From positions 1 to 64,000 of the forward strand of contig CACNCD010000006.1 of NCBI GenBank assembly GCA_902618855.1: a stretch of 64,000 nucleotides of DNA. The letters run 5' to 3'. Positions 10,671 through 29,246 of this stretch are shown here, in pieces (the stretch's first letter is position 1; the number at the start of each line of letters is the position of its first letter). Both the position numbers and the translations under genes were made by a program. The DNA comes from an uncultured Pelagibacteraceae bacterium (GTDB lineage Bacteria; Pseudomonadota; Alphaproteobacteria; Pelagibacterales; Pelagibacteraceae). The notes under the pieces were generated by a model. That model was not told where the DNA came from, ran no database searches, and was given only the letters and a program-made list of their open reading frames with translations.

Positions 10671-10847
10671 TTATCTTGTAGAACAAATATCCTTGATAAC
10701 TGGTACATTTGCACAATCAGAGCATTTTGTAGTCTGAACAATACAACCATCATCAAGAACTTTAACATCAACTACTCTATCGCACTTTGAACAAGTAGAT
10801 GAAATAGATAAACCACATTTTTTACAATTATAAGTTTCTGTTGTCAT
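10671..10847 (-). CDS. 58-residue zinc-ribbon-like small protein
   Basis: Small ORF (58 codons plus stop) starting MTTETYNCKKCGLSISS. It carries three CxxC pairs (CKKC, CSKC, CSDC) plus two further cysteines, a pattern expected of a small metal-binding ribbon or knuckle. I do not recognise a named family. No Shine-Dalgarno sequence is visible. The upstream 130 bases hold two Fur-box-like sites flanking a TATAAA hexamer, hinting at metal-responsive control. The cysteine spacing and the regulatory context argue that it is real. It could bind zinc or iron or help in metal sensing; function is unknown. Confidence 0.68.
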   Translation of the reverse strand: MTTETYNCKKCGLSISSTCSKCDRVVDVKVLDDGCIVQTTKCSDCANVPVIKDICSTR

Positions 10848-10892
10848 AAAAGTAAAATAAGAATTGTTTTTATTTTTTCAATTAAATTCAGT

Positions 10893-10962
10893 GTTAATGA
10901 TAATCGTTTGCAAAAAAATTTTAAAAATTTATAGAAAATTACTTTTAATGATAACTATTCTC
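10893..10962 (-). promoter_or_regulatory. Two Fur-box-like sites upstream of the zinc-ribbon gene
   Basis: GTTAATGATAATCGTTTGC (10893-10911) matches the 19-base E. coli Fur consensus at 15 positions and TTTAATGATAACTATTCTC (10944-10962) at 14, by hand alignment. Both share TTAATGATAA, 51 bases apart (about five turns). A minus-strand TATAAA (10933-10928) lies between them, so one site would overlap the -35 region and the other the transcribed start. Alphaproteobacterial Fur/Mur sites vary, so the regulator is uncertain. The region between the small gene and katG (10848-10976) holds nothing else I can name. Confidence 0.55.
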
Positions 10963-13301: not shown

Positions 13302-13712
13302 TTAGTCACTTATTCTTACTAAAATTTCAATAGATTTTATTTTCTTTCCAGGAATTTTTCTCTTTATTTTAACTTTTCCAACATCGCTATTTTTTAAATC
13401 TATAAGACGATTTGAGTTCTCATCTAAAAAATGATGATGATTTGAAACATTTGTATCAAAATAAGTCTTATTTGTATTTAAAGAGATCTCTTTTAAATAA
13501 TTTTTATTTTTGAACGCATAAACGGTGTTATAAATAGTTGCTAATGAAATCTTCTCTTTTGATTTTTTTCTTAGAATTTTGTTTAGGTCGTCTATTGTAA
13601 AATGAAAAGTTTTTTTTCGTTCATATAGAGCTTTGCAAATTTCAATTCTCTGTTTAGTCGGTCTTAATCCTGAGGATCTTAATTTTTTAATAAAATTCTC
13701 TTTATTATTCAT
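13302..13712 (-). CDS. irr: Iron response regulator Irr (Fur family)
   Basis: Fur-superfamily winged-helix regulator; Irr in rhizobia represses heme and iron genes when iron or heme is low and is sensitive to heme. The DNA-binding half includes SGLRPTKQRIEICKALY and LATIYNTVYAFKNKNYLKEI, and the second half has the HHH motif characteristic of Irr at residues 92-94 (NVSNHHHFLDENSNRLIDL). There is no C-terminal CxxC zinc pair. Divergent placement next to fabA-fabB-fabI is a conserved arrangement for irr in alphaproteobacteria and supports the name. 136 residues. It may regulate itself and fabA through the shared symmetric promoter region. Confidence 0.85.
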   Translation of the reverse strand: MNNKENFIKKLRSSGLRPTKQRIEICKALYERKKTFHFTIDDLNKILRKKSKEKISLATIYNTVYAFKNKNYLKEISLNTNKTYFDTNVSNHHHFLDENSNRLIDLKNSDVGKVKIKRKIPGKKIKSIEILVRISD

Positions 13713-28835: not shown

Positions 28836-29246
28836 TTAGGATTTTTTTTTTATACCGTATAATTCTAATTTATGATCGACTAACTCGTAACCATACTTTT
28901 CTGCAACTTTTTTTTGTAACTCTTCAATTTCATTGTCAACAAATTCAATAATTTCTCCGGATTTAATATCTATAAGATGATCATGATGACCTTCGTTTAA
29001 TTCTTCATATCTTGCTTTTCCACCTTTAAAATCATGTTTTGCTAAAATTCCACTTTCTTCAAAAAGTTTAACTGTTCTATATACTGTAGCAATACTTATT
29101 TTTGGATCAATTTTCGAAACTCTATTGTAAAGCTCATCAACATTGGGATGATCGTTTGAGTCTGACATTACTTTAGCTATGATCTTTCTTTGATCTGTAA
29201 GTTTAACCCCTTTTTTTTTACATTTAGTTTCAATTGTTGATGACAT
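28836..29246 (-). CDS. fur: Fur-family metal regulator (Fur/Mur)
   Basis: Ferric-uptake-type regulator. Winged helix with KLTDQRKIIAKVMSDSNDHPNVDELYNRV and ISIATVYRTVKLFEESGI; metal motif HHDHLIDIKSGEIIEF at residues 87-90 onward. No C-terminal CxxC structural-zinc cysteines. Location between tsaB and miaB matches fur/mur in other alphaproteobacteria, where the protein often senses manganese (Mur) rather than iron; sequence alone does not separate these. It and Irr are the two Fur-type regulators in the window. Confidence 0.93.
   Translation of the reverse strand: MSSTIETKCKKKGVKLTDQRKIIAKVMSDSNDHPNVDELYNRVSKIDPKISIATVYRTVKLFEESGILAKHDFKGGKARYEELNEGHHDHLIDIKSGEIIEFVDNEIEELQKKVAEKYGYELVDHKLELYGIKKKS

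Follow-up and report, generated by a model that had tools for sequence, protein, structure and literature searches.

Cells of the SAR11 clade are among the most abundant in the ocean, live at very low iron and possess few regulators. Fur boxes have been reported for this group, where, in the part of the source available, they are described as a 7-1-7 repeat that always precedes components of iron(III) transporters and FTR1 permeases, and that is missing from HTCC7211 and three other genomes (PMC4771312); an earlier paper, again in its accessible part, reports that a classic Fur box was not found in HTCC1062 (PMC3090418). Excerpts of two expression studies state that sfuC of P. ubique rises 16-fold under iron limitation (PMC2864753) and that sfuA and sfuB of HTCC7211 rise with ferrichrome (PMC13271415). 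For other bacteria, the available portion of a review places the boxes of Fur-repressed genes over the RNA-polymerase site and those of Fur-activated genes some 90-130 bp before the transcription start (PMC3788343).

The locus considered here probably represents an undescribed, iron-controlled gene of SAR11, and its upstream sequences make control by Fur very probable. The gene lies at 10671..10847 on the minus strand of a 64-kb stretch of SAR11 DNA (the window, by which we mean the whole stretch analyzed) and encodes a 58-aa mini-protein with eight cysteines, termed type A. As the initial annotation had noted, the ORF is tiny and cysteine-rich and contains three CxxC pairs (C8xxC11, C19xxC22 and C42xxC45), with C35 and C55 completing the set. 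ThiF-like and SH3-type genes flank it on one side, and katG, an Irr-like regulator gene and fabA on the other; KatG, SH3 and Irr were named by family searches, and the labels ThiF, FabA/B/I and hemB are our own reading of the sequences. Homologues as well as the ORF support its status as a gene: none of the eight cysteines varies among the 114 distinct type-A core sequences, and the median dN/dS is 0.09 (2330 pairs, dS 0.15-1.2). As judged from these alignments, the type-A protein is under purifying selection within SAR11.

Two Fur-box-like sites precede the gene on the same strand. The proximal box (10893..10911, minus; -64..-46 from the ATG) scores 17.4 bits and ranks first in the window, and the distal box (10944..10962, minus), 51 bp farther upstream, ranks second at 12.0 bits; the next-best score in the 64 kb is 9.2 bits. 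These values were obtained with a matrix trained on 46 regions from which near relatives of the window had been excluded, and an earlier matrix, which included a window site, gave an expectation of 0.25 matches of at least 14 bits per 64 kb. The two sites, at 10893 and 10944, share TTAATGATAA at a distance of 51 bases, exactly as first annotated, and a recount by eye on the plus strand returned the same 15/19 and 14/19 matches to the 19-bp Fur consensus. We take the motif to be the classic Fur 19-mer.

As a bare pattern the motif is unspecific genome-wide, and the case rests on conservation. With three mismatches allowed, the window's own genome contains five matching places against four for a reversed control: the two window sites, two within coding ORFs, and one over a hemB-like start codon. 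This last site (L034, C5:12591-12608), which has a divergent aspartyl-hydroxylase-like gene opposite, may reflect merely the coding sequence MIITG. Across 12 genomes, a perfect 13-bp core was found at five places in four genomes, and its reversed control at three places. Of the five, two stand before sfuC-like genes, two fall within coding sequence, and one is a type-A distal box.

Conservation was assessed on 51 representative upstream regions, less than 85% similar to one another, drawn from the 127 of 128 type-A genes with sufficient upstream sequence (15 regions from L002-L030, 13 from L039-L058 and 23 from a named set). The source loci came from 49 of 75 type-A genomes (30 best matches and 20 picked by hand, one of them twice, with the window's own genome omitted) and from the top 80 of 321 named loci; one row lacking an ATG (L043) and one with short upstream sequence (L047) were dropped. 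Because sampling took the best matches, the 51 are weighted toward close relatives of the window; the relatives in the named set belong to the Pelagibacteraceae. When each region was scored with a matrix that left that region out, at least one site of 10 bits or more was present in all 51 distinct regions, as compared with 0.8% of shuffles, and two sites were present in 44 (shuffles, 0%), the other seven carrying one box; random stretches of the named loci had a site in 3 of 729 cases. The doubled Fur-type operator proposed in the initial annotation is thus a property of 44 of the 51 regions and stays with the gene, and the suggested check on conservation came out in its favor within SAR11, with purifying selection on the protein and boxes retained; the one homologue outside the order has no box over threshold.

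Since the boxes are present across different gene neighborhoods, they appear to travel with the gene rather than with its surroundings. A katG/SH3/ThiF neighborhood is found in 22 of the 51 loci (in 17 cases together with an aspartyl-hydroxylase-like gene), glutathione peroxidase lies near three and FabI near one, such that 26 type-A loci are near KatG, glutathione peroxidase or FabI. The remaining 25 have none of ten reference neighbors within 1.6 kb, some flanks being short, and on this distribution we rejected conservation by read-through from katG. It might still be supposed that an unexpressed ORF happens to lie beneath accidental, AT-rich, box-like sites, given that the genome is AT-rich and the ORF short; the dN/dS of 0.09, the eight invariant cysteines and the presence of boxes in every one of the 51 regions, compared with 0.8% of shuffles, reduce the probability of this explanation to a negligible level. 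Matrix ranks, shuffles and the random-stretch counts all led us to reject chance sites.

The identity of the motif is indicated by a second set of genes. The same motif occurs upstream of genes for sfuC-like iron(III)-binding proteins in 30 of 30 parsed loci, and because it also precedes these iron transporter genes, its most likely identity is the Fur box of SAR11. This set derives from 32 loci, two of which (L193, L215) were not parsed, and comprises 18 distinct regions; 28 of the 30 were fetched by protein and two (L183, L185) by the motif itself, and the sfuC label is our assignment, based on Pfam SBP_bac_6 and context. Two or more sites are present in 23 of the 30. Among these promoters, those of L194-L202 carry three Fur boxes, with spacings of 28 and 22 bp. 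In the window's own genome (88% complete), sfuC was not found by PF13343 or by protein query.

The probable trans-acting regulator of these boxes lies within the window itself: the Fur-family gene at 28836..29246 (minus) encodes 136 aa, matches PF01475 at 139.5 bits, and has as its best NCBIfam match the ferric uptake regulator NF006999 (108.9 bits, under the cut-off of 146). The 990-kb, 88% complete genome yielded three Fur-family genes, one reason to consider that Irr, Zur or a peroxide signal, instead of Fur itself, reads the boxes. Such a reader would also suit the position of katG, which directly adjoins the mini-gene, lies near it in 22 of 51 loci, and is followed in the window by the Irr-like gene (13302-13712, between katG and fabA; best NCBIfam match IrrA, 117.1 bits, below the cut-off of 150). 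The Irr motif is expected to differ from the Fur motif, however, and the motif seen here is the classic Fur 19-mer and stands before the sfuC-like iron transporter genes in all 30 parsed loci; moreover, within the window neither irr nor katG is preceded by such a site, the fur gene likewise lacks one, and a fourth, PerR-like regulator was not found in the 88% complete genome. We consider a reader other than Fur improbable.

How Fur might act depends on where the boxes sit relative to the promoter. The initial annotation had pointed to a TATAAA flanked by the two sites; this hexamer does lie between them on the minus strand, but it does not hold up as a promoter, as the spacing of the boxes varies from 22 to 62 bp, leaving almost no room at the lower end, and as a conserved promoter-like pair is found beside the ATG. 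The predicted -10 element of that pair is TATTTT (10854..10859, minus; -12..-7 from the ATG), which would place the transcription start about at the ATG, and the predicted -35 element, TTGAAA (10876..10881, minus), is separated from it by a 16-bp spacer. Alignment of the 51 regions on the ATG shows T at -34 in 98%, G at -32 in 73%, T at -12 in 84%, A at -11 in 94% and T at -7 in 75%. TTG starts at -36..-33 in 49 of the 51 (6.9% of shuffles) and TANNNT at -13..-11 in 38 (24.5% of shuffles), the chosen -10 beginning at -12 in 36. With its -10 ending some 6-7 nt before the ATG and a Shine-Dalgarno-like stretch in just 4 of 51 regions, the arrangement bears the signature of a leaderless transcript. 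Two loci (L045, L046) have an AGGA-type stretch before the ATG, with the -35 about 11 nt farther upstream.

A proximal box beginning at -64 to -66 is shared by 48 of 51 regions, and the gap between box and -35 is 11 bp in 44, 12 bp in one and 21 bp in two; in the remaining four, the mechanical finder, which favors TTG, picked another -35. Downstream of both boxes there is thus a conserved pair of promoter-like elements, positioned as for a leaderless mRNA. The position of both boxes upstream of a predicted leaderless-type promoter is, as far as these alignments go, new; the open-licence papers searched yielded no account of Fur boxes at such a promoter in SAR11.

The boxes lie upstream of the predicted polymerase site and do not overlap it, a layout resembling that of Fur-activated promoters, and because they sit upstream of the core promoter we favor an activator over the classic Fur repressor. 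Our leading interpretation, to which we assign a probability of roughly 0.45, is that iron-loaded Fur activates the mini-gene through these boxes and that the product is a metal-binding peptide of iron-replete cells. Fur with iron would occupy the two boxes, the nearer of them 11 bp upstream of the -35, and, when iron is sufficient, would raise transcription from a promoter made weak by its 16-bp spacer and imperfect -10, in a manner similar to its action in other bacteria at boxes upstream of norB or ftnA. Iron or zinc might then be bound by the cysteines of the peptide, giving iron-replete cells a small protein for iron binding or redox protection.

The spacing of the boxes is no more than suggestive of helical phasing. 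In the 44 two-box regions the spacings are 22 bp (2 regions), 30-31 (21), 41 (5), 49-51 (12), 57 (1) and 60-62 (3), the 57-bp value involving a third box (L027). Tested against turns of about 10 bp, the 11 unique spacings gave p = 0.007, with neighboring values not independent; pooling into six clusters gave p = 0.10, which became 0.016 without the 57-bp cluster and 0.19 when the sfuC spacing of 28 was added. Because the pooled phasing is weak and the sfuC spacings are out of phase, our estimate for activation was lowered from 0.48 to the value given above.

The chief competitor to activation is that Fur represses the mini-gene from its two upstream boxes, cooperatively or by looping, so that cells starved of iron would produce the protein, perhaps as an iron-sparing stand-in or a metal chaperone. 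Repression is Fur's usual role, paired sites fit looping or cooperative binding, and the motif also stands at sfuC-like genes; in P. ubique, iron limitation induces sfuC, according to the available part of that study (PMC2864753). Upstream repressors can indeed work by looping, and it also counts against activation that the review's activators have their boxes farther from the start than the proximal box lies here, that seven of 51 regions have a single box, that the homologue outside the order has no box over threshold, and that HTCC1062 was reported to lack a classic Fur box (PMC3090418). Against repression, both boxes are upstream of the predicted -35 and clear of it, unlike the repressed promoters in the part of the review available (PMC3788343). 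We regard repression as possible, if somewhat less favored than activation.

A part in metal stress or iron storage, as the initial annotation suggested for the mini-protein, is a guess. Its zinc-ribbon label found no support as family membership: the best Pfam match is the double zinc ribbon DZR (PF12773), which resembles the mini-protein in the CxxC knuckles at its N-terminus but is reached at 19.4 bits, under the gathering cut-off of 27.3. The desulforedoxin-type FeS4 domain TIGR00319 scores 9.8 bits against a cut-off of 36.05, and none of the 42 distinct type-A sequences in the alignment has a CC pair. No PDB sequence matched with E < 0.1, and no family in Pfam, NCBIfam or PDB claims the protein over its cut-off; Rfam had no match within the 64-kb window. 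The open-licence papers searched held no description of the mini-gene, in keeping with the earlier view that it had not yet been described. AlphaFold models of type A (pLDDT 62.8) and of the sister family type B (pLDDT 70.0) are of low confidence, and Foldseek with the type-B model returned no match at E <= 0.001. From cysteine spacing one may guess at two Cys4 metal sites (C8, C11, C19, C22 and C35, C42, C45, C55), a guess because both folds are of low confidence.

A first search matched the mini-protein in 126 of 297 family genomes, and profile searches split the matches into type A (75 genomes) and type B (56), with neither in 166. No genome has both, where 14 overlaps would be expected under independence (phylogeny uncorrected). 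Among 337 genomes of the class, some of them family members, type A was found outside the family in one and type B in three; a search of the order added two genomes of another family with weak, type-B-like scores. The type-A homologue from outside the order (L218, G553) keeps all eight cysteines; no Fur box over threshold was found before it, the best site scoring 1.9 bits, and a weak palindrome lies at about -53. Two IMG/VR scans for a phage-borne gene yielded 27 and 122 pattern matches, none confirmed as relatives.

Type B (L059-L078), an unnamed eight-cysteine family of about 63 aa that also occurs in three Alphaproteobacteria outside the family, resembles type A by profile match (97.8% probability over 46 N-terminal columns), both starting CxKC...CxKC. 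It differs in its C-terminal KSPxCCGxDM, whose desulforedoxin-like CCGxDM ending does not occur in any of the 42 distinct type-A sequences of the alignment; Pfam gave nothing over cut-off for two type-B members. Type B differs also in its upstream regions, none of 19 having a Fur box and 13 of 19 having a Shine-Dalgarno-like stretch, against 4 of 51 for type A (20 loci from 19 of the 56 genomes, L064 dropped for short upstream sequence). Because genomes carry A or B and never both, this distribution suggests that the two have related roles. A bolder and rather doubtful proposal builds on the same exclusivity: SAR11 Fur would directly activate an iron-replete mini-protein through two boxes at a leaderless promoter, and lineages would bear either this iron-switched form or the box-free type B with a similar job, one function having been rewired to iron within one family. 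The locus raises the questions of whether SAR11 Fur activates as well, and of what use is made of iron once it has been acquired. A conserved putative Fur operator on an undescribed mini-protein would add a target outside uptake to the SAR11 Fur boxes reported in the part of the source available (PMC4771312).

Set beside the SAR11 Fur regulon as represented by the sfuC-like promoters, the mini-gene has in common the 19-bp motif and its multiple copies. In the sfuC-like loci a -35-like TGCGACA usually comes ahead of the best box, with no clear -10, whereas both boxes of the mini-gene precede the promoter-like pair; the contrast, as read from these alignments, is founded on the TGCGACA just before the box and the want of a clear -10. 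A Shine-Dalgarno-like stretch is present in 24 of 30 sfuC-like loci by our own count, as against 4 of 51 for the mini-gene, and the sfuC-like spacings of 22 and 28 differ in pattern from those described above. With the Fur-activated promoters of norB, aniA, nuoA, oorB, ompT and ftnA, as presented in the accessible part of the review (PMC3788343), the mini-gene has in common boxes that lie upstream of the core promoter and, with ftnA in particular, the possession of several boxes. It departs from them in its leaderless-type start, in the 11-bp gap to the -35 (44 of 51 regions), and in a proximal box centered at about -55, nearer the start than in the examples given there.
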